DNA from: Atopobiaceae bacterium
GTDB taxonomy: Bacteria > Actinomycetota > Coriobacteriia > Coriobacteriales > Atopobiaceae
Direction: 5' to 3'
DNA: 64,000 nucleotides
Assembly: GCA_022483015.1 (NCBI GenBank)
Contig: JAKVOB010000001.1
Location: forward strand, 558,001 to 622,000
Positions within the stretch are counted from its first letter, which is position 1, and every line of letters begins with the position of its first letter. Both the position numbers and the translations under genes were made by a program. Of the stretch, positions 32,689-50,800 are shown one piece after another. The notes under the pieces are model-generated. The model saw only the letters and a list, made by a program, of their open reading frames with translations. It made no database searches and was not told where the DNA came from.

Positions 32689-33957
32689 ATGGCAGGCGGG
32701 GCGGAACCTGTGGGCCCCTCTTCCGTGGCTGACGACGCTGCCATGCTCGCCCGGCTCACCGCCGACCGCCGGGCCCTCCACCGGGCGCCCGAGATCGGCC
32801 TCGACCTGCCCCATACCTGCGCCTATGTGGAAGGACGGCTCGCGGGCCTGGGGGCCGTGGTCGAGCACCCGCTGCCCTCCTGCGTCACGGCCCTCTTCGA
32901 CGTCGGTGCGCCTGCCACGGTCGCCTTCCGCTGCGACATGGATGCCCTGCCTGTGACCGAGGCCACGGGCCGCGACTTCGCGAGCGCCACGCCCGGCGTC
33001 ATGCACGCGTGCGGCCACGATGGCCACACCGCCACGATGCTCGAGCTTGCACGGCAGGTCTCGGCGGCGCGAGCGGCAGGGGGGCGCCTGCCCCACAACG
33101 TGCTCCTCGTCTTCCAGCCGGGTGAGGAGCATCCCGGCGGCGCGCGCCTCGTCTGCGAGACCGGCCTGCTCGAGCGCCATCACGTTGGCTGCGTCTTCGG
33201 CCTCCACCTGTGGCCCGACCTCGCGGCCGGCGAGGTCCGCACGCGCCCGGGCGCCTTCCTTGCCCGAGCCAGCGAGATGAACGTCGAGGTCGAGGGCGTC
33301 TCGGCCCATGCGGCGCACCAGGAGGCCGGCGTGGACGCCCTGGCCCCGGCCGCGCGGCTGGCGCTCGCCATCGGCGAGGTCGCCCCTGCCGAGCGCTCCC
33401 TCGGCAACCCCTGCGTGGTCAACATGGGGCGCATGGAGGCCGGCACGGTGCGCAACGCCGTGGCCGGCTCGGCCCGCATCGAGGGGACCGTGCGCACCTT
33501 CGAGCCTGCCTCCTGGGAGCGCGTGCGCACCAAGATCGGCGCCATCGTGGCAGCAGAGGCAGAGACGTCGCAGGCCAAGGCCACCGTCGACTTCGACGAG
33601 GGCTATCCTGCCGTCATCAACGACCAGGCGCTCACCGGTCGTGTCCTGGCCGACGTCACCGGCGTGGGCCTCGAGCCCGAGCCATCCATGATCGCCGACG
33701 ACTTCTCCTTCTACGAGCAGCGTGTGCCAGGGACCTACTTCTTCCTCGGCACAGGCAATCCCGCGCACGGCCTCCATTCCGACGGGTTCGACTTCGACGA
33801 GCATGTGCTTCTCGCGGGCGTGGGCCTGTTCCGCCAGCTGGCTACCATGGACTGGACGGCCCAGATGCGCGTCGCAGGGTCCGTCGACGCCGCAGGTCTC
33901 GACGCCACCCCGGCCACACCTGGCGCGCCCGTCCCGACACCTCACAAGGAGGCATGA
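32689..33957 (+). CDS. M20 family amidohydrolase, probable N-acetyl-diaminopimelate deacetylase
   Basis: 422 residues. M20D metallopeptidase motifs: RRALHRAPEIGLDLP near the start, CDMDALP, the metal-binding HACGHDGH, and FQPGEEHPGG. A lid/dimerisation domain is inserted in the middle, and DDFSFYEQRVPGTYFFLG lies near the end. Its place at the head of the riboswitch operon with dapH (acetylase branch) makes N-acetyl-LL-DAP the likely substrate. The start at 32689 is chosen because GAGGGGA lies upstream; earlier in-frame starts (32590-32626) fall in or just after the terminator tail and lack a ribosome site, though they cannot be excluded. Confidence 0.88.
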   Translation: MAGGAEPVGPSSVADDAAMLARLTADRRALHRAPEIGLDLPHTCAYVEGRLAGLGAVVEHPLPSCVTALFDVGAPATVAFRCDMDALPVTEATGRDFASATPGVMHACGHDGHTATMLELARQVSAARAAGGRLPHNVLLVFQPGEEHPGGARLVCETGLLERHHVGCVFGLHLWPDLAAGEVRTRPGAFLARASEMNVEVEGVSAHAAHQEAGVDALAPAARLALAIGEVAPAERSLGNPCVVNMGRMEAGTVRNAVAGSARIEGTVRTFEPASWERVRTKIGAIVAAEAETSQAKATVDFDEGYPAVINDQALTGRVLADVTGVGLEPEPSMIADDFSFYEQRVPGTYFFLGTGNPAHGLHSDGFDFDEHVLLAGVGLFRQLATMDWTAQMRVAGSVDAAGLDATPATPGAPVPTPHKEA

Positions 33958-33958
33958 C

Positions 33959-34816
33959 ATGCCTATCATCCCAATCTCCAAATACCATGGCTGCGGCAAC
34001 GACTTCGTGCTCGCACGCGAGTCCGACGTGACCGCCACCGGCCTCGACGCCGCCGACTTCACCCGCGCCGTCTGCGACCGGCACCTCGGCATCGGTGCCG
34101 ACGGCACCATCCTCGCGGGCGGGGAGGCCGCAGGCGGCAGCGGTCCCCTCTGGATGCGCTACCGCAACGCCGACGGCTCCGTGGCGCCCATGTGCGGCAA
34201 CGGCATCCGTTGCCTCGCTGCCTACTGCGCCGACGAGGGCATCTGCGCCGAGGGCTCGTATCCCATAGAGACCCTGGCCGGCACCAAGGTCGTGACCCGC
34301 GTCTCGGCCGACGGCGACCCGTACGTCTTCAAGGTCGACATGGGCACGCCGGACTGGTCGCCCGCCTCCCTTGGCGTGACGGCCACGACGACCCCCATCC
34401 GCGACTACGCCCTCGACCTCCCGAGCGGGGCCTGCGTGCAGGTCTGGGCCCTCTTCATGGCCACCGACCATGCCGTCATCCTCACCGACGATGCGATGGC
34501 CGAGAAGAACATGGCCCTGGGCCGCGAGGTCTGTCACCACCCGCTCTTCCCCCGCCAGATCAACGCGAACTTCGTGCAGGTCACCGGCGAGGGCTCCATC
34601 ATCATGCGCACCTACGAGCGGGGCTGCGGCCCCACGCTCGCCTGCGGCACCGGCGTCTGCGCGAGCGTCGTCGTGGCCCACGAGGCGGGACTGGTGGGTG
34701 CGGACGTCGATGTGACCGTCCCTGGCGGCCACATACATATACAGGTAAACGAGGACGGTCATGTCCTCATGAGCGGCGGGGCGACCCGCATCATGCGAGG
34801 GGAGTGCTTCCTATGA
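33959..34816 (+). CDS. dapF: Diaminopimelate epimerase
   Basis: 285 residues, PLP-independent racemase that converts LL-DAP to meso-DAP. The two catalytic cysteines are Cys79 in MCGNGIRC and the one in LACGTGVCAS near residue 225; KYHGCGNDF is the family start. The ATG at 33959 follows the M20 stop by one base and uses AAGGAGG inside the end of that gene. Its own stop overlaps the dapA ATG. Confidence 0.96.
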   Translation: MPIIPISKYHGCGNDFVLARESDVTATGLDAADFTRAVCDRHLGIGADGTILAGGEAAGGSGPLWMRYRNADGSVAPMCGNGIRCLAAYCADEGICAEGSYPIETLAGTKVVTRVSADGDPYVFKVDMGTPDWSPASLGVTATTTPIRDYALDLPSGACVQVWALFMATDHAVILTDDAMAEKNMALGREVCHHPLFPRQINANFVQVTGEGSIIMRTYERGCGPTLACGTGVCASVVVAHEAGLVGADVDVTVPGGHIHIQVNEDGHVLMSGGATRIMRGECFL

Positions 34817-35712
34817 GCAGGAACGCGATGGTACGAGGCTCGATCGTGGCGCTGGTCACGCCGTTCGACGACGCCGGTGACGTGAACTTCGACATGCTGG
34901 GCCAGCTGCTCGACTTCCACATCGAGCACAAGACCGACGGCATCCTCATCCTCGGGACCACGGGTGAGAGCTCCACGCTGTCGCATGACGTCGACGACGA
35001 CGTGGTGCGCTTCTGCGTGAGCCACGTGGACGGCAGGTGCCCGCTGATCTTCTCGGCAGGCTCGAACTGTACGAAGGAGTCGGCCGACAAGTGCCGGCGC
35101 TACGAGGCCGAGGGCGCCACGACGGCCCTCGTCATCACGCCGTACTACAACAAGGCGTCCGACGCCGGCATGCAGGCCCACTTCGAGACGATCGCCGAGG
35201 CCTCCGACCTCGACCTCATCCTCTACAACGTGCCCAGCCGCACGGGCTGTGCCATCTCGCCGGCCGTGGCCGAGCGCCTGTCGCAGGTGCCCACCATCCG
35301 CGGCATGAAGGAGGCGTCGGGCAACATGGGCTACATGTCCGACATCGCCCACCTGGCCGGTCCCGACTTCTCGATCTACTCCGGCAACGACGACATCGTG
35401 GTCCCGATGCTGTCCATGGGCGCCACCGGTGTCATCTCCGTGGCGGCCAACATCATCCCCGACCAGATGCACGAGATGGTGGCAAGCTATCTGGCAGGGG
35501 ACGTCGCGCTCGCGCGCGACCTGCAGGTCCGCTATCTCGACCTGATCCACGCCCTCTTCTGCGAGGTGAACCCCATCCCCGTGAAGGAGGCCATGCGCCA
35601 GCTGGGCATGGACGTGGGCGGCTACCATCTGCCCATGTGCGACCCCACGCCCGAGCACAAGGCCCGGATCGCGGCCGCCCTGGCTGCGGCGGGACTCACC
35701 AAGGAGGACTAG
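34813..35712 (+). CDS. dapA: 4-hydroxy-tetrahydrodipicolinate synthase
   Basis: 299 residues, class I aldolase that condenses pyruvate with aspartate semialdehyde. The Schiff-base lysine is Lys166 in GMKEASG, with the TTGE motif (49-52) and Tyr138 in LYNVPSRTG. The start at 34813 overlaps the dapF stop (ATGA) and has GGGGAG upstream. The far longer upstream reading in the same frame runs through dapF and is not real. Confidence 0.96.
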   Translation: MSRNAMVRGSIVALVTPFDDAGDVNFDMLGQLLDFHIEHKTDGILILGTTGESSTLSHDVDDDVVRFCVSHVDGRCPLIFSAGSNCTKESADKCRRYEAEGATTALVITPYYNKASDAGMQAHFETIAEASDLDLILYNVPSRTGCAISPAVAERLSQVPTIRGMKEASGNMGYMSDIAHLAGPDFSIYSGNDDIVVPMLSMGATGVISVAANIIPDQMHEMVASYLAGDVALARDLQVRYLDLIHALFCEVNPIPVKEAMRQLGMDVGGYHLPMCDPTPEHKARIAAALAAAGLTKED

Positions 35713-36519
35713 ATGCCTGACGAGAGGAACGACGGTATGAGGCGCCTGCTCGTGACGGGAGCCGGACGGATGGCCAACCTCGTCGCCGAGACGGCGGCCT
35801 CCGCTGGCTGGGGGGTCGTGGGCTGCTTCGGCCTGGGCCAGGAGGACGAGGGCATGACGGCCGCCCATGAGGCCGCCTCCGCGGGCGGGCTCGACGCCAT
35901 CGTGGACTTCTCGGCCCCGACCGCGATGTCCTGGGTGGCCCCGCTCGCCTCCGAGTGCGGCGCGGCCCTCGTGAGCGGCACCACCGGCCTGGGCGATGCC
36001 GAGCGCGCCCTGCTCGACGAGGCCGCACGGACCGTGCCGGTCTGCTGGAGCTCGAACTACTCGGTGGGCGTGGCCGTGGCGGCGCACGTGGTGCGCGAGA
36101 TGGCGCAGGTGCTCTCGGGCGACTGGGCGGACGACGCGCTCGACGACGCCTGGGAGTGCGAGATCGTGGAGCGCCACCACGACGCCAAGGTCGACGCCCC
36201 CAGCGGGACGGCCCTCTCGCTTGCCGACGCGGTCGACCCCGAGGGGCGCCTGCGCCGCGTCTGCGGCCGCAGCGGCATGTGCCCGCGCCAGCACGACGAG
36301 CTGGGGATCTGCTCCGTGCGCGGCGGCACCATGGCGGGCACGCACGAGGTGGGATTCTATGGTAGCCACGAGCAGCTGCTCGTGACGCATGTGGCAGAGG
36401 ACCGCAGCATCTTCGCGGTGGGGGCGGTCCATGCGGCCGACCTGCTCGCGGGGTGCGCGGCCGGACGATACGAGTTCGCCGACCTGCTGTTCGGGTCGGC
36501 CGAGGGGAGCAAGGCATGA
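35713..36519 (+). CDS. dapB: 4-hydroxy-tetrahydrodipicolinate reductase
   Basis: 268 residues. NAD(P)H-dependent reduction to tetrahydrodipicolinate. The conserved catalytic stretch [15 protein letters not shown] is complete. The N-terminal nucleotide loop is GAGRMA, slightly reduced against the usual GxxGRMG. SGTTG and SSNYSVGV match the family. The ATG follows the dapA stop directly, with AAGGAGG seven bases upstream in dapA. Its stop overlaps the dapH start. Confidence 0.95.
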
Positions 36520-37274
36520 GCCAGGACGCAAACATGGACGCCCAGCAGATCATCGACTTCATCGCGACCGCGCCCAAGAAGACGCCGGTGCGCGTGCTGG
36601 TGGCGAAGCGCGACGCCGACACGTGCTTCTCGGCTGCGGGCGTGGCGGCGGCCGAGGAGGCCGTGGCCGCTGGCGACCTGCACGTCTTCGACTGCGGGGC
36701 CTCGGCCATCGTGACGGGCAACTGGACGGCGGCCAAGGCGCTGCTCGACGCGCGCGCCGACGACATCGCCGACACCGTGGTCGAGACCGTCGGCCGCAAC
36801 ACCGGCGTGCCCATGCTCGACGTGCGTGACATCCACGCCCGCATCGAGCCGGGTGCCTACATCCGCGACCACGTCTCGATCGGCGACGGGGCCGTCATCA
36901 TGATGGGCGCCGTGATCAACGTGGGTGCCGAGATCGGCGACGGCACCATGATCGACATGGGTGCCATCCTGGGCGGTCGTGCCATCGTGGGCAAGAACTG
37001 CCACATCGGCGCAGGTACCGTGCTTGCCGGCGTGGTCGAGCCCGCCAGCGCCACACCCGTGCGCGTGGACGACGGCGTGCTCATCGGCGCCAACGCCGTG
37101 GTGCTCGAGGGCGTGCACGTGGGCGAGGGTGCCGTGGTGGCGGCGGGTGCCGTGGTCGTCGACGACGTCGCGGCGGGTGCCGTGGTCGCCGGTGTGCCCG
37201 CGCGCGTCATCAAGCAGGCGAGCGAGGTCGCGGCGGGCAAGGTCTCGCTGGTGGACGCGCTCCGGTCGCTCTAG
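36516..37274 (+). CDS. dapH: 2,3,4,5-tetrahydropyridine-2,6-dicarboxylate N-acetyltransferase
   Basis: 252 residues. The N-terminal DapH domain (1-85, [21 protein letters not shown]) is followed by left-handed beta-helix hexapeptide repeats ([54 protein letters not shown]). The sequence follows Bacillus DapH nearly throughout, including the pre-helix [16 protein letters not shown], so it uses acetyl-CoA rather than succinyl-CoA. It is last in the riboswitch operon and overlaps dapB by four bases. The matching DAP aminotransferase is not in the operon. Confidence 0.95.
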
Positions 37275-38075: not shown

Positions 38076-38588
38076 ATGGCATCTGAGAAGGACGGTCCCT
38101 GTGCGGTTCGCGCCACGTCCGGTCCTGCCGCGGAGGATGCCTCTGCCGCACATGTCACCGACGAGCTCCTCGACCGGCTCCTTGCCAGCACCAGTCCTGA
38201 GCAGTACCTCTCGGGACTTGCTTCCTCCGATGCCGTGAGTTCGGCAGACCCGTTGCCTGCCTACCTCGCAGACCTCCTCGCCGAGAAGGGCCTCACGCGT
38301 GCTGAGGTCATCCGTGCGTCAGGCCTCAATGCCACCTACTGCTACCAGGTCTTCCAAGGCGACCGCCATCCCGGGCGCGACCATGCCCTCATGCTGGCCT
38401 TCGGCCTCGGCTGCTCGCTTCACGAGACCCAGCGGCTCCTCACGCGGGCTGGCGTCGCCGAGCTGTGGTGCCGCGTGCGTCGCGATGCCATCATCATCTT
38501 CTGCATCGACCACGGCATGACGCGCGTCGCGTGCGATGACGAGCTATGGCGTCTTGGGGAGCCGACGCTGCTCGACGCGGGCGTATGA
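38076..38588 (+). CDS. HTH protein encoded next to a Hanks-type kinase
   Basis: 170 residues. Residues about 1-60 are poorly conserved. Residues about 65-110 form a Cro/XRE-like HTH: LADLLAEKGLTRAEVIRASG then NATYCYQVFQGDRHPGRDHA. A conserved C-terminal half follows (FGLGCSLHETQRLLTRAG, RDAIIIFCIDHG, DDELWRLGEPTLLD). The same architecture recurs in the protein at 39955-40362. GGGAGGGGAGG lies before the ATG at 38076. The stop overlaps the kinase start (ATGA), so the two are made together and probably act together, for instance with the kinase modifying the DNA-binding protein. Family not named. Confidence 0.8.
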   Translation: MASEKDGPCAVRATSGPAAEDASAAHVTDELLDRLLASTSPEQYLSGLASSDAVSSADPLPAYLADLLAEKGLTRAEVIRASGLNATYCYQVFQGDRHPGRDHALMLAFGLGCSLHETQRLLTRAGVAELWCRVRRDAIIIFCIDHGMTRVACDDELWRLGEPTLLDAGV

Positions 38589-39775
38589 CGGTGGACCGAT
38601 CGGACGCCGACCTGCTGCATGCGCTCGAGCTCGACGATGCCTATCGGGTGGAGCGCGTCCTGGGAGAGGGGCCATCTGCCCGGACCGAGCTGGTCACGCT
38701 CGAGGGCTCGGGCCCCTTCGTGCGCAAGAGGATCCCCCTCGAACTCGCCAACCCGGCGGCCTGGGCGCGACTCATGACGGTCGACGAGCCCCTGCTTCCC
38801 AAGGTCGAGCGCACGTACACCTTGCCCGACGCCTTCGTCGTGGTGAGCGACTACGTCGACGGCATGAGCCTCGACGAGCGTGTCCGCAGGGAAGGACCGC
38901 TCGTGCCGAACGAGGCCATCCGCATCCTTGAAGACGTGGCCCACGCTGCGGGCGTGCTTCATGCCCATGGGATCATTCATCGCGACATCACTCCTGCCAA
39001 TGTGGTGCTTGCCGCTGACGGTGCCCACCTCATCGACCTCGGCATCGCGCGTGTCCACTCGCAAGAGGAGAAAAAGGACACAACACGCATGGGTACCTGG
39101 GGATTCGCTGCGCCTGAGCAGTTCGGGTTCGCTCAGACCGACGCCCGGTCAGACGTCTATTCCCTCGGCCGCCTGCTTGCCTATATGCTCGTGGGCGTTC
39201 GTCCTGACGCGGTCGGCTTCGAGGCGTCGCTGGCCGATCCCGCCCGTGTGTCCGCTACGCTTGCTCATGTCGTCGCTCACGCCTGCGCCTTCGAGCCGAG
39301 TGCGCGTCCCCAGACCGCCGACGAGCTTGTGCGCGAGGCGGATGCCGCGCTCGCTGGCGAGGTCGTCGCGGACAAGGCCTCGTCGTCGCAGACGCGATTG
39401 GCCCTTGCCACCCCGCGCCGCGTCCTTGCGATGTTCACCACCTGGCGGCCCTGGGTGGCTGTCGCGATCGTCCTGGCTGCGGCTACCTTCGGGCTCGGGT
39501 TCTTCGAGAGCGAGGTCGTCGAGGCGCAACGGGCGTCCACCATCGTGATGCGCGTCTACTCCATCTATTTTGGAGCTGTCCTCGTCATGTCGATGACGGT
39601 GGTCCCCGCATGGGAGCTGTCCCGTGCGGTCCTGTGCGCGGGTCCCTACAAGGAGAAGGAGGGCCGCTGGAAGCATGCCGTCTGGCGGGTCGCCCGCTCC
39701 GTCCTCGTCGGTGTCGCCCTCATCACGGTGGTCGCCGTGGTCATCGCCCTCGTCAAGAGGGCAATGGGAGTCTGA
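38585..39775 (+). CDS. Membrane-anchored Hanks-type serine/threonine protein kinase
   Basis: 396 residues. Kinase domain in residues about 20-280: ATP lysine probably Lys48 (FVRKRIP), catalytic loop HRDITPANV (Asp134, Asn139), metal site DLG (151-153, in place of DFG), TRMGTWGFAAPEQ (APE 176-178) and SDVYSLGRLL. The glycine-rich loop is degenerate (VLGEGPSARTE). Three hydrophobic segments follow near 289-310, 328-350 and 376-396, with no PASTA or other large outer domain. It is translationally coupled to the HTH gene upstream and lies upstream of a second HTH gene. Targets unknown. Confidence 0.9.
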   Translation: MTVDRSDADLLHALELDDAYRVERVLGEGPSARTELVTLEGSGPFVRKRIPLELANPAAWARLMTVDEPLLPKVERTYTLPDAFVVVSDYVDGMSLDERVRREGPLVPNEAIRILEDVAHAAGVLHAHGIIHRDITPANVVLAADGAHLIDLGIARVHSQEEKKDTTRMGTWGFAAPEQFGFAQTDARSDVYSLGRLLAYMLVGVRPDAVGFEASLADPARVSATLAHVVAHACAFEPSARPQTADELVREADAALAGEVVADKASSSQTRLALATPRRVLAMFTTWRPWVAVAIVLAAATFGLGFFESEVVEAQRASTIVMRVYSIYFGAVLVMSMTVVPAWELSRAVLCAGPYKEKEGRWKHAVWRVARSVLVGVALITVVAVVIALVKRAMGV

Positions 39776-39820
39776 CCTCGCGTCGTCCTCGTCGTGACAC
39801 GTACCCTCGAATCGCGCTTT

Positions 39821-39862
39821 CAGCTCCGAGCTAATGTAAAGGGCGGTACGTTCGACCATCAT
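39821..39862 (+). promoter_or_regulatory. Conserved promoter-like element, copy 1
   Basis: CAGCTCCGAGCTAATG (39821-39836), containing the palindrome AGCTC-C-GAGCT, is followed after exactly 20 bases by CATCAT (39857-39862). The same arrangement recurs at 40404-40445. It lies about 90 bases before the second HTH gene. The box overlaps where a -35 would sit, so it may be an activator or repressor site. Confidence 0.55.
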
Positions 39863-39954
39863 CTCCTCTGTAAGAAGGGGACGGATGCCAGTGCGGGAGG
39901 CGCAACGACCTCTTCGCCCTATGCGGCGTCCTCTCTCGCGGGAGAGGGGGATGG

Positions 39955-40362
39955 ATGCCAGGTACCTGGAACTTCGTGCGGAACAGGAGCCTTGCGGACA
40001 TCCTCGGTGGCATGGTCGCCGACGGGCGCGACCTTCCTGCGTGGATTGCCGACACGCTTGACGCGCGTACCCTCACCCGCAGCCAAGTGATCCGTGACTC
40101 GCATCTCAACCCGACGTTCGCCTACCAGATCATGGCGGGTGCCAGGCACGCCTCTCGGGACAAGCTCATCCAGCTCGCGTTCGGGCTTCGCCTCGACCCA
40201 GATGACGCGGACGCGATGCTCGAGCGCGGTGGCATGAGCGCCCTCCGGGCCTACGACCGGCGTGACGTCGTCGTCGCATATTGTCTTGCGAGAAGCACCG
40301 GCCTCGCTGCCTGTGACGACCTTCTCTGGAGTCTTGGCGAGGACACGATCGTGGGCAGCTAG
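39955..40362 (+). CDS. Second HTH protein of the kinase module
   Basis: 135 residues. The HTH region, IADTLDARTLTRSQVIRDS then NPTFAYQIMAGARHASRDK, and the C-terminal half (FGLRLDPDDADAMLERGG, RRDVVVAYCLARS, DDLLWSLGEDTI) align along their length with the HTH protein at 38076-38588, so the two flank the kinase gene as paralogues. It lacks the long N-terminal part of its relative. GAGGGGG lies a few bases before the ATG at 39955; a nearby ATG at 39951 is out of frame. It is probably transcribed from the element at 39821-39862. Confidence 0.8.
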   Translation: MPGTWNFVRNRSLADILGGMVADGRDLPAWIADTLDARTLTRSQVIRDSHLNPTFAYQIMAGARHASRDKLIQLAFGLRLDPDDADAMLERGGMSALRAYDRRDVVVAYCLARSTGLAACDDLLWSLGEDTIVGS

Positions 40363-40403
40363 GTCTCCCCTTCGCGTCAATGACGTCGCCGTTCGCCAGA
40401 ATT

Positions 40404-40445
40404 CAGCTCCCAGCTAATGAGTCGACACTTTCAGTTTTCTATCAT
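40404..40445 (+). promoter_or_regulatory. Conserved promoter-like element, copy 2
   Basis: CAGCTCCCAGCTAATG (40404-40419) differs from copy 1 at one base and is followed after 20 bases by TATCAT (40440-40445), a fair -10. It lies about 48 bases before the first lipoprotein gene. Confidence 0.6.
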
Positions 40446-40492
40446 CTGCCTCATAGCCGGCCCGAGGGGCGGGCAACGAGGGAGGGAGCTCC

Positions 40493-41077
40493 ATGGACGA
40501 GAGAAAGGCTCACGGTGGCCCAAGGTCCGTCGGCGTCAGGGGACGCATCGTGATGGGTGTCGTTACGGGGACGCTCTGTCTGTCGGTGATGGGTTGCGGT
40601 TCCTCTGCGGGCGGCTCGGCGCAGGCAGCGGCCTCTTCTGCGGCTGCCACGACGACGTCTGCTGCCGATACGGCTGCTACGACAACGCCCGCTGCCACGA
40701 CGACGCCTGCTGCCAGCACGTCAGCCGCCAGCGCGGCAGCAGGGCAGGCGGGTGCAAGTGACGAGTCGACCTACCAGGGTATTCTCGACGAGTACACGGC
40801 AAAGCTCCAAGAGGCGACCCCTGCCCTCATTGACGAGTACAACACCGAGGCCGCCACGAACACGGACGGCGTCCAGGGACTTGCGACAATCTGCCAGGCA
40901 AAGGTCACGAAGCTTGCTGGGATATCCACCGAGGGAACCACCAAGATGGCGCAGCTCCTCTATACGGCCGGGAGCGGATCGACCTCCGAATACCAGGAGT
41001 GGGCCGGCAAGCTGAGCGACGTGTACACGGAGGAGGCGCAGAAGATCACGGACGCCTACATGGCCTCCGCGATGTGA
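40493..41077 (+). CDS. Lipoprotein of unknown function (Ala/Thr-rich linker)
   Basis: 194 residues. A lipoprotein signal peptide ends in the lipobox LSVMGC (Cys at about residue 35). A low-complexity Ala/Thr/Ser linker (about 40-85) and a helical domain (TYQGILDEYTAKLQEATPAL onward) follow. GGGAGGGAG lies before the ATG at 40493. It should be anchored to the outer face of the membrane. It is the first gene after the conserved element at 40404-40445, linking it to the HTH-kinase module. No family recognised. Confidence 0.8.
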   Translation: MDERKAHGGPRSVGVRGRIVMGVVTGTLCLSVMGCGSSAGGSAQAAASSAAATTTSAADTAATTTPAATTTPAASTSAASAAAGQAGASDESTYQGILDEYTAKLQEATPALIDEYNTEAATNTDGVQGLATICQAKVTKLAGISTEGTTKMAQLLYTAGSGSTSEYQEWAGKLSDVYTEEAQKITDAYMASAM

Positions 41078-41152
41078 TGCGCACCCTGCAGGATCAGCAG
41101 ACGGGTGCATGCCGTGTAATGCCAGGCACCCTCAACGAGAGGTGGAACAACC

Positions 41153-42001
41153 ATGGGACCATACGAATGCGCTCATGCAAGGAGAAGGGCCCGACGGACT
41201 GCGGGCATATGCTCGGTCGCGGTGCTCCTGCTTGCAGCCGTCATGCTCGTGCTGCCCGGATGTGGGGGTAGTGCCAGCGGTGGGACGACGGCCAACACCG
41301 CATCCCTCTCAGATGACGAGATCGCAGACCTCTACAACGGTTCGACATCATATAAGGGACGCACCATAACGGTGTCAGGCAAGGTCTTCAACGTGGACGG
41401 CAGCGACGGATTCCAGCTCTGGCACGACCCGGCCAACAATGCCGGCAACACCCTGGTCAAGGGCACGGGGTGTGCCTCGGGCCTTGCGAGCGGCGATTAC
41501 GTCATCGTGACGGGCACAGTTGATGACCCATATACGGGCACCAACGCGGTGGGCGGGAGCGTCACGGCAGTTTCCATTGCCGAGACCTCTGTGGAGAAGT
41601 CCTCCTACAAGGACGTGATGGCCCCCACGCTCAAGGAGGTCGCCGTCGGCCAGACCGTCGACCAAGGCGGCTGCCAGGTCACGCTGGACAAGATTGAGTT
41701 CGCAGCCAACGAGACGCGCGTCTACGTCACGGCGACCAACAACGGCACCGCGCAGTTCACGCCCTACGGATACTCGGCCCACCTCATCCAAGGCGGGAAG
41801 CAGATCGAGGTCGACCAGACCAACAGCTACCAGCAAGGGTACGACCAGCTCAGCTATACCGGAATCGTCTCGGGGGCGAGCTCGAGCGGCGTCATCGTGT
41901 TCCCGGCCGTCGACCAGGCGAGCCTGCAGTTCGTGATCGGTGGCTACTGCAGCGACTACACCAACCAGCTTGGGGACTTCACGTTCGATGTGACCATCTA
42001 G
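41153..42001 (+). CDS. Lipoprotein with OB-fold-like and DUF4352-like domains
   Basis: 282 residues. The signal peptide ends in the lipobox VLPGC (Cys at about residue 37). Residues about 50-145 look like an OB-fold (YKGRTITVSGKVFNV, then GDYVIVTGTVDDPYTGTN). Residues about 155-282 form an immunoglobulin-like beta domain resembling DUF4352 (VGQTVDQGGCQVTLDKIEF, NNGTAQFTPYGYSAHL). Domain calls are by eye. GAGAGGTGG precedes the ATG at 41153. It follows the first lipoprotein gene by 75 bases and is probably cotranscribed. The role is likely at the cell surface. Confidence 0.8.
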   Translation: MGPYECAHARRRARRTAGICSVAVLLLAAVMLVLPGCGGSASGGTTANTASLSDDEIADLYNGSTSYKGRTITVSGKVFNVDGSDGFQLWHDPANNAGNTLVKGTGCASGLASGDYVIVTGTVDDPYTGTNAVGGSVTAVSIAETSVEKSSYKDVMAPTLKEVAVGQTVDQGGCQVTLDKIEFAANETRVYVTATNNGTAQFTPYGYSAHLIQGGKQIEVDQTNSYQQGYDQLSYTGIVSGASSSGVIVFPAVDQASLQFVIGGYCSDYTNQLGDFTFDVTI

Positions 42002-42655: not shown

Positions 42656-42699
42656 ATACGTTTCAAGTGGTTCTAAATGCTAGACCACTTGAAACGTAT
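42656..42699. promoter_or_regulatory. 16-bp-arm inverted repeat upstream of the surface-protein genes
   Basis: ATACGTTTCAAGTGGT and its exact complement are separated by 12 bases, ending 20 bases before an extended -10 box (42720-42728). The position over the -35 region suggests an operator; a transcript starting upstream would also form a strong hairpin. The rest of 42338-42830 shows nothing else I can name. Confidence 0.55.
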
Positions 42700-42830: not shown

Positions 42831-44834
42831 ATGAAGAGCCCAAAGCATGTTATAGTCCTCCTCACGACACTTGCCCTCGTCCTCGGATGGGTCCTTGTCC
42901 CGCAGGCTGCCCATGCGGCGGAGGCTCCCGATGTCACGGGTGCCGACTTCTACGTCACCGATGCCGCGCAGGCCTCCGACGTCGACGTCCTCACGGTCAC
43001 GGGAGCTGCCGGTGACGACCTCTACATCGAGGTCACGCAGGATGGCGGTCGCGTCGCGAGCCACCTCCACTATGCGCTCGGCTCCGACAATGCCTCCTCC
43101 TCCGTCACAGGCCAGCTCGTCGGTGTCGTGAGCCTCAAGATGAGCCAGTTCGACCCCACCTCCACCTACGATGTCAAGGCCTACTCCGACCGCGCCTACA
43201 CCAACCAGCTCTATGCGGGCACGCTCACGGCGGTGCGCGCCACCTTGGGCGGCACGCAGGACGTCATCATCGGCTATACCACCAGGGCGGCTGGCGAGGG
43301 CCAGTCCTTCTCGGCGCCCGCCACGTTCACCAAGGACGGCGTCACCTACAGCAATCCCACCACGGCCGCCGACGGCACCATCTCGTATACGGTCGATACC
43401 TCCACCGCGCCGTCCCTCACGGGATCCATCAACTATGTCGACGAGGATGGCACGTCCCTCAGTAAGCTCGACATCGAGGGCATCACGTCCGACCAGCCTC
43501 AGACCGTTTCCGTCGAGAAGGTCATCGCCGTCGGGTCCGGATCGAGCGCGAGGTTCTACCGTACCTTGAGCCTCTCCGACACGGTCACGGCGACCTATGG
43601 CGGCACCAAGGACTTCACCATCACGTGCCGTCCCATCAGCCTCGGCAACGATGGCGTGAACCAGTTCTACAGCGCCACGATCAACCTCGTCGACCAGGAC
43701 GGCGCCACGCTTGCCACGGACTCGCTCAACGTGACGGGTCGCTACCGCTGGACGGCCCCCTCCACGATGTACCTCACCAAGGACGGCACGTCGCATACCT
43801 ATGAGCTGGTGGGAAGCGACGTGAGCCAGTACGCCGCAGGCATCCTCACGCTCGATCCCAGCAAGGATGGCGTGACCTCGGGCGCCAGGACGTACACCAT
43901 CTCGTACAAGGACGTCACGCCTCCGACGGCCGAGGCCACCTGGACGGTCCGTGTCACGAACGGATCCGTCGACCCCCATGCGTCGAACCGTACGATATCG
44001 ACCGAGAAGGTCAAGGTGTCGGCTTCCTATGTCCCCGAGCAGTCCATCGACGTCGATGGCACCACCTACGTACCGGTCAAGTCCACCAAGGCCTCGTACT
44101 CCTATGACGACGCCCTCGCGCAGAACGCCAACGACCCTGTGCTCTACGTCTACTACGTGCCGGCCGACTACGTGGCCCCCGGCGACCGCACGGTCACGGT
44201 GAACTACGTCAACATCACCGGTGGCGCCACCATCGACTCCAAGACCTACACGCTCACCCCCGACGACACCGAGGACCTCTCCATCACGTCGCCCACGAGC
44301 TTCGTATCAGGCGCGACCACCTACGTGCGCCTGGACGGCCAGGACTCGCCGATCGTCTGCGGCTACTACACCAAGTACGACACCTACACCGTCTACTACC
44401 GTGACGTCAACGACGACATCGCGGCCAACACGGTGATCACCCACTTCCGCGTGGACTACGTCGACAACGGTACCACGGACAATGGGACGACGAATAGCGG
44501 GACGGGCACCAACGGGACGGCAGGAACCGGTACCACGGCCAACGGCACTGCGACTGACGCCGACGGCCAGACCGTGGGCCTTCCCACCGACGGTGACCTC
44601 AACACGGTCAGCAACGGCGGCGACACGGCCACGGTCGTGAACGGTGACGGCGTCGACTCCAACACCGCGCGCATCGACGACAACGAGACACCTCTGGCCT
44701 CGGGCCAGGAGGGCGGCATCCCTGTGGGTGTCATCGCCGGCAGCGTCTGTGCTGCCGCGGCGCTCGCGATCCTTGTCATCCTCCTCGTCATGAGGCGCAA
44801 GAAGCATGCCGACACCACGGCCGACGGCCAGTAG
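42831..44834 (+). CDS. Secreted, membrane-anchored surface protein
   Basis: 667 residues. A signal peptide (KHVIVLLTTLALVLGWVLV, cleavage near AHA-AEA at about residue 30) precedes about 550 residues of Thr/Ser/Val-rich beta domains. Several short units have MucBP-like character (INYVDEDGTSLSKLDIEG, INLVDQDGATLATDSLNV, VNYVNITGGATIDSKTYT). A Gly/Thr/Asn-rich linker follows, then one C-terminal helix (VGVIAGSVCAAAALAILVIL) with an RRKKH tail. There is no LPXTG, so it is membrane-anchored. AAGGA precedes the ATG. The next gene follows after 16 bases, so the two are cotranscribed. Likely adhesin or pilus-associated protein; inferred. Confidence 0.85.
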   Translation: MKSPKHVIVLLTTLALVLGWVLVPQAAHAAEAPDVTGADFYVTDAAQASDVDVLTVTGAAGDDLYIEVTQDGGRVASHLHYALGSDNASSSVTGQLVGVVSLKMSQFDPTSTYDVKAYSDRAYTNQLYAGTLTAVRATLGGTQDVIIGYTTRAAGEGQSFSAPATFTKDGVTYSNPTTAADGTISYTVDTSTAPSLTGSINYVDEDGTSLSKLDIEGITSDQPQTVSVEKVIAVGSGSSARFYRTLSLSDTVTATYGGTKDFTITCRPISLGNDGVNQFYSATINLVDQDGATLATDSLNVTGRYRWTAPSTMYLTKDGTSHTYELVGSDVSQYAAGILTLDPSKDGVTSGARTYTISYKDVTPPTAEATWTVRVTNGSVDPHASNRTISTEKVKVSASYVPEQSIDVDGTTYVPVKSTKASYSYDDALAQNANDPVLYVYYVPADYVAPGDRTVTVNYVNITGGATIDSKTYTLTPDDTEDLSITSPTSFVSGATTYVRLDGQDSPIVCGYYTKYDTYTVYYRDVNDDIAANTVITHFRVDYVDNGTTDNGTTNSGTGTNGTAGTGTTANGTATDADGQTVGLPTDGDLNTVSNGGDTATVVNGDGVDSNTARIDDNETPLASGQEGGIPVGVIAGSVCAAAALAILVILLVMRRKKHADTTADGQ

Positions 44835-44850
44835 GACGGGGGAGCGAACG

Positions 44851-47800
44851 ATGAAGAACACCAAGAAGGGTTCACTCATGGGCAAGCATTCGTACCACAA
44901 GGGTGCCAGGACCTTCCTCACCATCCTGCTCTCCGTCGCGATGGTCACCACGTCGGTGCCGAGCAATGCCTTCGCGGCCGCGGCGCAGGCGGCGACCACT
45001 GCGGCGAGCACGGCTGCCACCACGGCCGCGGCGACGCTGTCCACGTCTGACGAGAAGGCTGCTTCGGGCTCCACCTCCACGGAGACCTCGACTGCGACGA
45101 CCGCCACCTCGGGCACGACCACCACGCCTGCCGCGACGACCGCGACCGAGGTCGACCTTGCCCTCGCGCTCGACCACGCCTACATCGTGGTAGCCGGCCA
45201 GGACGTCGTGGCACCAGCGACCAAGGTCACCGTCACCGCAGCCAAGGACCTCAAGTTCACGGCCGTACCGGACAACGGCTATCGCCTCGACACGGTCACC
45301 TACACGCAGGCGGGCGTCACGCAGGCCGACGGCTCCCTGGCCAAGACCGAGCTCACGGCAGACGCGAACGGCATCTATACGCTGCCGGCTGACGTCGTGC
45401 GCGCAGGATGCGCCCTCCAGGTCTCGAGCGTCGAGAAGGACGACTCCACGGCCGAGGCCACCGCTGCCGCGACGTTGCTGGGCGACGGCTCCCAGACGGT
45501 CGCGGCGGGCGCTGCGACGACCGACGGCATCTCGGCCGCGACTGCCACGGCCACCCAATCCACGATCACCACGAGCGACGCCGCCGCTGCCGCAGTCGCC
45601 GCTGCGGTGGCCACCGCGACCCCCGTCGCGACCCAGGCCGCCTCCGGTCCCGTCGCGATCACCGGCAGCATCGCGGACGTGACGCTCAAGCTCACCGATG
45701 CCAGCGGTGCCACGATCGATCCCACCGTGCCCGTCTCGCGTGACCAGAGCATCCACGGCGCGCTCAGCATCGACTACCATCCCGAGACCTGCCCGAACCA
45801 GAGCAGCCTCGAGTACACCTACGCCTTCCCGTCCGGCATCAGCGTGGACACCGTTGCCACGTCCACCCTGTACGACGAGAACCATGCAGTCGCCGGCACC
45901 TACGAGATCAAGGACGGCGTTGCCCACATCACCTACGACAAGACCTGGATCAGCGACCACGCGGGAAGCGTGAAGACGTTCTTCTCGTTCGACTTCAAGG
46001 TCGAAGACGATGCCGTCGACGAGAGCGGCTCCACGACCATCACGTTCCCCGGTACGGGGGACACCACCATAAAGACCTACAAGGACGGAAACGTCACTGG
46101 TGAGAAGGGCTATGTGCTCAACTCCGATGGCAGCGTCGACTTCACCGTCACCTTCGTCGCCGACCAGGACGTCACAAACTTCAGCTTCGTGGACACCATG
46201 GGCAAGAACCTCTCGTTCGTGGACGGCTCGTTCAAGCTCGATGGCAAGACGATCGCCGTGACGGTCGACGGTCAGACGGTCACGAGTGACGTGCTTCCGA
46301 CGCTTGCTGCCGGCTCGCATACGCTCACCTATCAGGCGGTCCTCTCCCAGGCGGGCAAGGACCGCATCGAGAGCGGCAAGAAGCTCTCTGGTAAGAACGA
46401 CACGGATGACTCGACCAACACGATCGGGTGGAAGTGGGGTCACGACGGAACGGGAACCGACAACACCGTCGTGGAGAGCACCAACGTCCTCATCGACAAG
46501 TCGGACGGCTGGTTGAACGCCGACGGTACCATCCACTGGCATGTCCGCCTCAACCAGGGGTCCCCAAAGGCGGACTTGGGCGACTACCTCTTCACGGACA
46601 CCCTGACCGCTGGCGAGCAGTCCTATGTGGGAACCTACGTCGTGAAGGCGATCGAGCGGGATGCCGACGGCAAGGTCGTCTCCGAGACGCCGGTGACCAC
46701 CGGGGACATCGACCCCGCGAAGGGCTCCTTCACCTACGCGTTCCCTCATGATGCCGGCTCGAAGGAATACACCATCGAGTATTCCACCAAGATGGCCAAC
46801 CCCAGCCTGACGCAGACCTACAAGAACACGGCGGCGGTCAACAAGGAGGGCGTCGGAGGAGCGAAGGACACCGGTCAGTACGCGAACTCCGTCGGTGTCG
46901 ATGGCGACTACATCGAGAAGGCCATCGTCAAGAACGACGCCTCTGCCACAGGCCTGGTCTCATGGAGGTCGACGATCCATGGCGCCGCGATCGGCACGTC
47001 TGACTTCACCTTCTGGGATGACACGGACCAGTGGGCGGACAACATCTGGTTCGCCGAGGACGAGAACGGCAACACCCTCGCACCCGTCGTCTCCTACGGT
47101 GGCGAGGGCAAGGTGCTCGAGGAGGGTGTCGACTACACGCTCGAGTTCCATAAGGACAAGGCAGGGCTGCACACCACAAGTGACCTCCACAACTGGAGGT
47201 TCAGCCTCAAGTTCCACGATACCGAGGCCGTGCGTCAGGCGATGACGGGTGACATCTTCGTCAGCTATGACACGATGTGCGACGGCAGCGCGGACACGTA
47301 CAACAATTACTCCTATTACTACATCGGCACCGTGAAGCAGCATGTGGCCAAGGCGAGTTACCAACTCGAGGGCACGCCGACCGTCACGAAGTCGGGGTCG
47401 ACCCCCGTGTGGGATGCCGACCTGGGCGCCTACGTCACCACGTGGACCATCGTCGCCAACAAGAGCGCGCTCGACGGGAACCGCGGCAATGCCGACCTCC
47501 AGGGGACGCCCATCACGGTGACGGATTCGCTCCCGGTCGGGATGCACTACATCGCCGGCTCGGCCTCCTATGTCGCGCAGACAGCAAAGAACAAGACTTC
47601 GGGGGCGGTCAAGCTCGATCCCGTCGAGACCACGGCGGACACGGGCGACACCCTGGTCTTCTCGGCCCCGTCAGCCGAGGTGCTGCAGGCGATCCAACAG
47701 GCCGATGGGTCCCAGAGGGCACTCGTCACGATCACCTTCAAGGCTGCGATCGACAGTTCCGTGCTCACGGTGGGCGGCACGACGTCGTTCACCAACAACG

Positions 47801-50800
47801 CGACTGCCGGCATCGGTGGCTACAGCCCCTCGACCACGGGTACGGTGACTGTCGAGGACGACAAGGTCCTCGACAAGACCAGCCAGAAGAACGACGCGAC
47901 GGCGCTCATCGACTACACCGTCAAGGTCAACGAGCATGCCTATGACCTGTCCGACGAGGAAACGCTGACGCTCACGGACGACCTCGACGCCGGAACCAAG
48001 GTGGTCCGTTCGACCATCAAGGTCATGAGCGGGGATACCGACATAACGAACGACTGTGTCGTTCAGGTCGATGATGCGACGAACGTGATGACGCTCATCC
48101 TCCCCGACTCGACCTCCCTCGTCGTCACCTATGGCGTGAGGATGACCGGTGACCTGGGCAGCACGTCGGATGTCTCCAACTCGGCGACCCTCTCTGGCAA
48201 GGGGAGCTGGTCGTCGACTGACGAGCATCCGTATACGGTCACCGAGGCCACTGCTGGTGCCTCTGGCGTGACCGACACGGTCACCCTCTACAAGACCGAC
48301 AGCCTGCACGCGAACAGGGCCCTCCCGGGTGCCGCATTCTCGCTCTATCGCGTCTCGATGGACGGCCATAAGGCGGACTCGTCTGTCGAGGACGACGCAA
48401 GTGTGGTGGACGAGAACAAGACGACGTCCGGTACGGCTGGTGCCCTCAGGTTTGCCGACAAGAACACCGGTGGCGAGGCAATGCTCCCGAACGTGCTCTA
48501 CTACTACGTCGAGACCGCAGCGCCCGCGGGCTACGAGCTGGATGCCACGAAGCACTATGTCATGCTCGGGGACACGAGCTCCGACGAATACAAGGCACAG
48601 GCCCAGAGGGCGAAGGACTACTACGGGATAACCCTTGGTGAGGTCGCGGCCGACCCCACGCAGAACGTCAAGGATGCAAGGCTCACCACATCCGTGTCCC
48701 TCTCGGCAAAGAAGGCCCTCAACAACGAGGTCCCTGCCAAGGACGCATACTCCTTCACCCTCGCGCAGACCTCAGCCAAGGACTCATCCGGTAACGACCT
48801 AGACACGGGATTCAAGACCCGGACGGTGGGCAACGATGCCGACGGAGGCGTGCCATTTGGCGAGATCACCTATGACACGGCAGGTACCTATACCTACACC
48901 ATCACCGAGGTCGTGCCTGCTGGCGTGACCGCTGACAATCCCACAAAGGATGGCGTGACCTACGACCTGACGTCGCACGAGGTCACAGTGACGGTCACCG
49001 AGACGGCTGGTGAGTCCCTCACGGCGACCGTAGCCTACGATGCCTCCACCGACGTGCCCGTCTTCGCCAACAGCTATGCGGCTACGGGCTCGGCGTCCTT
49101 CTCGGCGACCAAGTCCTTGGACGGTGCCACGCTCGCGGCAGACCAGTTCTCGTTCGCGCTCGAGCAGACCGACGAGAAGGGCACGGTCCTTACTGATGGC
49201 TACAGGCAGACCGTGAGGAACGGCGAGAACGGGGCCGTCACGGCCGCCGACGTCAGGTTCTCGGACATCGGCTACACCCAGGCAGACGCCGGAAGGACCT
49301 TCTACTACACGATCTCCGAGGTCGTCCCCGAGGGGGCCAAGGATGCCGGCAACGGCACCTGGACCAACGCCGGCTACACCTATGACGGACATCGCGTGAG
49401 CGTCAAGGTCGAGGTCACCGACAAGGGCGACGGCACGTTGGGCATCACCAGGACCTACGGCGGCTCCGCGACCGCACCGTCGTTCTCGAACAGGTACGTC
49501 GCCTCCGGTGGCGTGACCCTCACCGCGAGCAAGACGCTGGCGGGCCATGCCCTCGCGAACGGCCAGTTCGAGTTCGAGCTCAAGGACGCCAACGGCGGCG
49601 CCGACGACGGCACGGTCCTCCAGACCAAGACGAACACTGACCAGGGCCTCGTGTCGTTCGACAAGATCACCTACGACAAGGCCGGCACGTACCACTACAC
49701 CATCTCCGAGAAGGCCGGCGAGCTCGGCAAGGGCTACACCTACAGCAGCAAGGTCTCGAACGTCACCGTGACCGTCAAGGACAACGGCAAGGGCCAGCTC
49801 GTGGCCGTGCCCTCCTATGACGTGGACGCCGAGGGAGTGGGCACCGCGACGGCGCCGACGTTCGCCAATACCTACACAGCGACCGGATCTGCCGAGCTCA
49901 AGGCCACCAAGACCCTGACCGGCGACGGGGCGACGCTTGCGGCAAACCAGTTCGACTTCCAGGTCAAGGACTCCAGCAACACGGTCGTGGCGACCGGCAC
50001 CAACGACGCCGACGGCGACGTGACCTTCTCGGCCATCAAGTACACGCAGGCAGATGCCGGCAAGACCTACACCTACACGGTCTCGGAGGTCGCTGGTGCC
50101 GCTGCGGGCATGAGGTACGACAAGACCATCTACACCGCCACGGTCAAGGTGTCTGACAACGACGACGGCACGCTCTCCACGGCGGTCACCTATGCCAAGG
50201 TCGACGGCACCGAGGGCGGCACGGCGCTTGCCGATGGAGGGGCGCCCGCGTTCGCCAACACCTACGCGCCCACTTCCACGTCGGTCCAGCTCGCCGCCTC
50301 GAAGGCGCTCGCGAACGCGACGGACAAGACCACGCTTGCGGCTGGCGAGTTCAGCTTCCAGGTCACGGACGCCGACGGGAAGTCCGTCGCCACCGGCACG
50401 AACGATGCCTCCGGCAACGTGACCTTCTCCAGGATCGACCTCAACAAGGCAGGCACCTACACCTACGCCATCTCCGAGGTCGTGCCTGGCGAGGCCGCCG
50501 AGGCCGGCAACGTGGCCAACGGCATCACCTATGACACGACGACCTACAAGGCCACCGTGGTCGTGAGCGACCAGGGTGGGGCGCTCAAGGTCGACTCCGT
50601 CACGTATACGAAGGCCGACGGCTCGGCCCTCGACGACGGCGTGACGCTGCCCAGCTTCGTGAACACCTACAACGCCACGGGTTCCGTGACGCTCGGTGCC
50701 ACGAAGTCCTTCTCGGGCGCGGATGCCAAGCTCACGGCTGACAAGTTCGCCTTCAAGCTCACCAGCGACGCCGAAGGCACCATGGTCATCTCGACGGCGA

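Follow-up and report, generated by a model that had tools for sequence, protein, structure and literature searches.

A predicted kinase–helix-turn-helix circuit with a conserved operator before envelope-protein genes in Coriobacteriia

We analysed a 64,000-nucleotide stretch (the window) of an Atopobiaceae bacterium (assembly GCA_022483015.1, contig JAKVOB010000001.1, forward-strand positions 558,001 to 622,000). It contains a membrane Hanks-type Ser/Thr kinase gene, which is flanked by the genes of two helix-turn-helix (HTH) proteins, HTH1 and HTH2, and followed by two predicted lipoprotein genes, LP1 and LP2. Our reading, to which we give a probability of about two in three, is that the kinase modulates an HTH protein acting as activator, and that this protein turns on a very small envelope regulon, most of it local. 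Sequence comparison gives good support to the DNA side of this circuit: the kinase pairing, the operator and its match to the recognition helix, the fixed -10 spacing, and targets that are local and of envelope type. We infer in addition that the HTH proteins bind DNA, that they activate rather than repress, and that the kinase phosphorylates them, together with the direction of this phosphorylation and its signal.

Conservation of the HTH-kinase pairing

An earlier note on this DNA had proposed the HTH-kinase pairing in relatives as a test, and the pairing was found to be widely kept. A profile built from HTH1 and HTH2 and run on 300 Coriobacteriia genomes found the HTH family in 183 of them. 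Of 40 fetched loci from several families, 39 have a Hanks kinase gene immediately 3' of the HTH gene and in the same orientation. A scan of GTDB contigs gave 80 loci, all from Coriobacteriia, and the kinase adjoins the HTH in 75 of them; the two sets share species and their loci are not independent samples, so the counts are not to be summed. Among the five GTDB loci without an adjoining kinase, one (L079) has its sequence masked by Ns. Four genomes (G178, G256, G183, and G294 in our numbering) show the exact order HTH1-kinase-HTH2, and two HTH genes at the same spacing as in the window are found in three (G158, G219, and G237). The pairing is also present in Listeria monocytogenes, where the HTH gene is divergent from that of a 380-residue kinase and a DUF5067 gene is adjacent (EL207_RS02235-02245), and a human-gut contig from outside Coriobacteriia holds another divergent HTH/kinase pair. 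No HTH relative was found in viral contigs; hence, the system is not evidently phage-borne.

A palindromic operator

HTH2 and LP1 are preceded by a 17-bp box, TCAGCTCCGAGCTAATG (39820-39836) and TCAGCTCCCAGCTAATG (40403-40419), respectively, with 16 of 17 positions identical; the consensus of this element is TCAGCTCC(G/C)AGCTAATG. The earlier note had assigned a near-identical element to HTH2 and both lipoprotein genes, which holds for HTH2 and LP1 but not for LP2, as no box precedes LP2 within the window. No other match occurs in the window at up to three mismatches, where chance predicts 0.15, and the 2.28-Mb genome has no further exact match. A third near-match, at 47442 in the window's genome, was taken as chance; it lies inside a long reading frame and has no fitting -10. 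The core of the box is the palindrome TTAGCTnnnAGCTAA, and 5' of the HTH2 and DUF5067 genes of relatives the box is TTAGCTnnnAGCTAATG, a perfect 6-3-6 palindrome plus TG, hereafter the Q-box.

In 91 fetched loci, TTAGCTnnnAGCTAATG at up to two mismatches gave 193 matches, one palindrome possibly matching on both strands, versus 4 in the reversed control. Across 36 whole genomes, 49 distinct sites were found at up to one mismatch. An HTH-family gene lies no more than 3.5 kb away from 39 of these, so most of the regulon is local, at about one to three sites per genome. All five three-gene-module genomes examined (G178, G256, G183, G294, and G237) have two boxes, one before HTH2 and the other before a lipoprotein or membrane-protein gene; of the ten sites, two match less well (2-3 mismatches). 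The remaining 10 of the 49 sites, lying elsewhere, have a chance-like gene context for the most part and were set aside, with one convincing exception. This well-formed Q-box (position 3805 of locus L241, G215:C1:1019304) has a correctly spaced -10, TAGAAT, and stands before a zinc-ribbon gene well away from the HTH-kinase locus, so that the regulon is not in every case purely local. In another locus (L240 1-3567, G189:C163), a Cas9-like reading frame was observed about 290 bp from an exact Q-box.

Two operator codes

One HTH clade lacks the Q-box. Unbiased counting of palindromes in its loci gave TCAGTTnnnAACTGA (the D-box), which is also of the 6-3-6 form. In the HTH proteins of this D clade, Asp replaces Gln at position 91 of the recognition helix (HTH1 numbering; helix 86-94 in the model). 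Loci of the Asp clade have a D-box in 15 cases, a Q-box in none, and neither in 3; non-Asp loci have a Q-box in 89 cases, a D-box in none, and neither in 13, several of the 13 being cut by contig ends. Both codes occur together within the same genomes. We aligned position 91 by eye with Gln33 of the 434 repressor, which we take to be a base-contacting residue. On the tree, the window HTH1 and other Q-box HTH1 proteins join the D clade and not the type A proteins of Eggerthellaceae and Coriobacteriaceae (support 99/97). As Q-box HTH1 proteins group with the D clade, the box tracks the recognition helix and not overall relatedness.

Promoter geometry and target genes

For both codes, the hexamer [TC]ANNNT starts exactly 22 nt past the 15-bp palindrome in 107 of 122 distinct boxes; the other offsets tested for it gave 0-11 boxes each. 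Both window boxes keep this spacing (Table 1). A 22-nt distance to the -10 places the operator centre near -42. Most sites, above all in the D class, have only a weak TTGACA-like -35 or none. Since this layout matches that of class II activators, whose operator is near -42, as for lambda cI at PRM, we favour the view that the HTH proteins would activate rather than repress.

The genes behind the boxes encode mostly surface or membrane-anchored proteins, plus the HTH or kinase of the system itself. They include DUF5067 lipoproteins, membrane proteins with DUF4190 and DUF5067, Lipoprotein_Ltp and DUF6591 proteins, further lipoproteins, and a small number of zinc-ribbon proteins. Also behind boxes are HTH2 or the HTH itself and, frequently in the D class, the kinase. 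As gene starts were called by simple rules, namely a start codon plus a ribosome-site motif, individual assignments may be in error. With its operator tracking the recognition helix and sited before envelope-protein genes, the small envelope regulon on which the earlier note had the HTH proteins act is well supported as a prediction. That note had not anticipated the promoter layout of activator type, a second operator code, the association with DUF5067, or how nearly local the regulon is.

DUF5067 genes cluster with HTH genes. In the 80 genomes with DUF5067 (Pfam), 54 of 94 places are within 3.5 kb of an HTH-family gene, versus 0.33 expected under uniform placement. At type A loci, the DUF5067 gene is usually just upstream of the HTH-kinase pair. 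At type B loci, those of the window's own family, it is downstream of the kinase or HTH2, a position held by LP1 and LP2 in the window.

Features of the HTH proteins and the kinase

HTH1 and HTH2 share 42% identity over 113 residues (E 8e-30) and are hence paralogues; they are the sole two family members in the window's genome. No Pfam or NCBIfam model reaches its cut-off on either protein. HTH1 scores 19.6 bits with HTH_31 (cut-off 27) and 17.4 bits with HTH_3 (cut-off 23), and HTH2 matches no Pfam HTH model. The structure model of HTH1 is all-helical, with a predicted local distance difference test (pLDDT) value of about 97 over residues 61-160. Its DNA-binding part resembles 434 Cro, DdrO, ClgR, and the C proteins C.AhdI and C.Esp1396I in Foldseek. 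Against 434 Cro, DdrO, and C.AhdI, the probability is 1.00 and the target template-modelling (TM) score 0.7, with a best E of only 0.04. The significance is modest, though the agreement of the modelled domain with the XRE/lambda-repressor-like fold looks convincing to us. The last two helices, carrying an RRDAII...CDDELWRLGE motif, have no confident Foldseek match (all E above 0.001). An N-terminal TEELL...TPExYL motif is absent from HTH2. Many Coriobacteriia genomes also contain second, diverged HTH relatives (E about 1e-9 to 1e-14) in frames of ~350-500 residues, such as G002:C12:1182469, G028:C3:4839, and G031:C1:1891352.

The kinase matches Pfam Pkinase (E 1.7e-24; 87.1 bits, cut-off 31.7), and its catalytic motifs HRDITPANVVL and DLG are intact; an HRDxxPxN-type motif is present in 105 of 114 relatives. 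Three hydrophobic segments (residues 280-298, 324-342, and 372-390) follow the catalytic domain. The earlier description of two paralogous HTH genes on either side of a three-helix Hanks kinase is confirmed. The window's genome holds three Pkinase genes. The kinase has no PASTA match in Pfam and scores 113 bits with NF033483 (cut-off 450). Its top matches in PADLOC are to PD-T4-6 (E 7.8e-38 over the kinase domain), where no curated cut-off applies and many kinase models match. Past the kinase domain, three helices are the usual number in type A and B kinases. Those of the D class carry a single helix and an extended C-terminal region of extracytoplasmic look, to which the Pfam search assigned no family.

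Layout of the module in the window

The features of the module are collected in Table 1. The genes of HTH1 and the kinase overlap by ATGA at 38585-38588, as had been noted before. LP2 starts 75 nt past the end of LP1, and the two are probably on one transcript. As judged by reading of their sequences, LP1 and LP2 have signal-like N-termini ending in a lipobox-like Cys (VMGC and LPGC, respectively), in agreement with the two downstream lipoprotein genes described earlier. LP1 weakly resembles the Sie-type surface lipoprotein family phrog_8545 (E 9.5e-5), and LP2 has weak similarity to DUF4352 (E 0.007, under the cut-off). We rejected LP1 as a conserved partner of the system, its relatives across Coriobacteriia being few and weak. 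A DUF5067 identity of LP2 was unsupported, as profile comparison matches the lipobox only.

Table 1. Features of the kinase-HTH module, with positions in the window
Feature	Description	Position	Strand
HTH1	XRE-like DNA-binding protein (predicted), 170 residues; two-helix C-terminal extension; co-transcribed with kinase	38076-38588	+
Kinase	Membrane Hanks-type Ser/Thr kinase, 396 residues; N-terminal kinase domain, three C-terminal hydrophobic segments	38585-39775	+
Operator, HTH2 promoter	Predicted palindrome TCAGCTCCGAGCTAA; 17-bp box including TG ends at 39836	39820-39834	+
-10, HTH2 promoter	Predicted hexamer CATCAT, 22 nt past 15-bp palindrome	39857-39862	+
HTH2	HTH1 paralogue, 135 residues; predicted to be box-controlled	39955-40362	+
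Operator, LP1-LP2 promoter	Predicted palindrome TCAGCTCCCAGCTAA; 17-bp box including TG ends at 40419	40403-40417	+
-10, LP1-LP2 promoter	Predicted hexamer TATCAT, 22 nt past 15-bp palindrome	40440-40445	+
LP1	Predicted lipoprotein, 194 residues	40493-41077	+
LP2	Predicted lipoprotein, 282 residues	41153-42001	+

Upstream of the module, reading frames at 33842-37274 resemble a dapF-dapA-dapB-dapD lysine/diaminopimelate cluster. A gene for a 667-residue surface protein is located at 42831-44834, and ~130 bp 5' of it is a perfect 16-bp inverted repeat with a 12-nt loop (ATACGTTTCAAGTGGT/ACCACTTGAAACGTAT, 42656-42699), possibly the operator of another regulator. Directly after this gene comes a single reading frame of 2755 residues (44806-53073), which resembles a repetitive cell-wall adhesin with Cna-B-like repeats.

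Proposed mechanism and alternatives

From its pairing with the HTH gene, its membrane topology, and the kind of genes targeted, we infer that the kinase would sense an envelope state and phosphorylate the HTH proteins. Held by its three C-terminal helices, and perhaps with its surface lipoproteins, it would respond to an envelope condition by phosphorylating the co-transcribed HTH1 and possibly HTH2. HTH dimers would bind the palindrome TYAGCTnnnAGCTAA centred near -42 and recruit RNA polymerase as class II activators to promoters with a fixed-distance -10 and no convincing -35. The output in the window's genome would be three genes: HTH2, amplified or auto-activated, LP1, and LP2. At type B loci, the box-less HTH1-kinase unit would serve as a standing sensor. 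HTH2 may be an amplifier that depends less on the kinase, because it is predicted to be box-controlled and lacks the TEELL...TPExYL motif. As D-class kinases have an apparent ectodomain, it may be guessed that the lipoproteins feed back on the kinase.

Several observations weigh against this mechanism. In the window, no box precedes the HTH1-kinase unit, and LP1 and LP2 are not the usual partner DUF5067 (PF16729), which has no match in the window proteins or the genome. In Listeria, no box can be recognised at 2 mismatches. Among the HTH proteins, no conserved Ser/Thr presents itself as the phosphosite, and Thr28 (T28) of the N-terminal motif is absent from HTH2 and the Listeria HTH. The operator switch occurred once on the tree, so the covariation of box and recognition helix is strong but unreplicated.

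Most small XRE proteins known are repressors, and the HTH proteins might block the polymerase over the -35 position, with the kinase relieving or strengthening repression. The operator would indeed overlap the -35 region, and about one third of Q-class promoters match TTGACA at 4/6 with suitable spacing. However, repression has no need of a -10 spacing that is base-exact in 107 of 122 boxes over two codes, and most sites, above all in the D class, lack a good -35; we consider repression rather improbable. The fixed -10 distance would also suit a recognition element for a sigma factor, such that the box might belong to a different factor, for example an alternative sigma factor or global regulator, with the HTH proteins binding at other sites. 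This is very improbable given that the box is a dimer-like 6-3-6 palindrome found almost exclusively beside HTH-family genes, and that it changes with their recognition helix, both codes being inside the same genomes.

Another explanation concerns the kinase. Hanks kinases usually have many substrates, and this one could target other envelope or division proteins and be linked to an HTH that is not its substrate and merely controls expression of the locus; the D-class box, often before the kinase gene, fits such simple autoregulation. The pairing is near-invariant while other neighbours vary, even in the divergent arrangement of Listeria, which makes this explanation unlikely, if still credible. 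We give little credence to an anti-phage surface system, in which the kinase would detect attacking phages and the lipoproteins keep them from entering. A Lipoprotein_Ltp protein (E 7.4e-50) is one of the box targets examined, its family includes known superinfection-exclusion members (PMC3952083), and both the weak match of LP1 to a Sie-like phage family and the PD-T4-6 matches of the kinase point the same way. Most targets, however, are DUF5067 or other lipoproteins with no phage link, the PADLOC matches are generic, as other kinase families score comparably, and the pair is conserved across families with no relative on viral contigs.

Relation to known systems

The module shares with PknH-EmbR of Mycobacterium tuberculosis a membrane Hanks kinase and an adjacent DNA-binding activator. 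EmbR is a larger regulator with an FHA domain, whereas the window regulator is a small XRE-type protein without FHA, and its operator code and promoter geometry are class-wide. By analogy, the HTH proteins may be compared with lambda cI at PRM and the C proteins of restriction-modification systems in XRE fold, palindromic operator, and an activator position beside the -35. They differ from these in having a kinase as fixed partner and a two-helix C-terminal extension without a confident structural match. The kinase domain is homologous to those of the PASTA kinases PrkC/PknB (E 1.8e-32), but the window kinase lacks a PASTA domain and has a fixed HTH neighbour.

The Listeria locus resembles the module in its kinase with C-terminal hydrophobic helices, its neighbouring HTH, 52% identical over 109 residues to an Adlercreutzia homologue, and its adjacent DUF5067 gene. 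It differs in its divergent arrangement, its single HTH, and the lack of a recognisable TTAGCTnnnAGCTAA box. By length and annotation, its kinase fits Lmo0618. A clean deletion of lmo0618 is among mutants reported to have 5-10-fold lower intracellular replication (PMC3091722); neither of the two papers that turned up mentions the HTH beside it in its passages on lmo0618. In the open-access literature, with preprints and subscription papers outside its scope, we found no paper on the HTH-kinase pairing, on DUF5067 with kinases, or on such an operator, and the status as undescribed is provisional for that reason. Kinase-plus-regulator pairs are already a known kind; the HTH family, operator code, and promoter geometry appear new.

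Many bacterial Hanks kinases reach gene expression by diffuse routes that are difficult to test. In this module, a few kb hold all the predicted parts, namely kinase, regulator, operator, and targets. The operator is resolved to single bases and comes in two natural specificity variants, and a complete Ser/Thr-kinase-to-promoter circuit would be open to test by few experiments. It is conceivable, at somewhat less than even odds, that a kinase with a dedicated XRE-type activator is a general Ser/Thr counterpart of two-component systems in Actinomycetota and Bacillota, with orthogonal operator codes, two copies parallel per cell, and an exchangeable sensory end; the latter would consist either of three helices alone, alongside a surface lipoprotein encoded separately, or of a single helix to which an ectodomain is fused. 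In gut Coriobacteriia and in Listeria, the module gives a starting point for the function of DUF5067 and related surface proteins, and it suggests a compact circuit, apparently not described before, that would carry signals from the cell surface to DNA.

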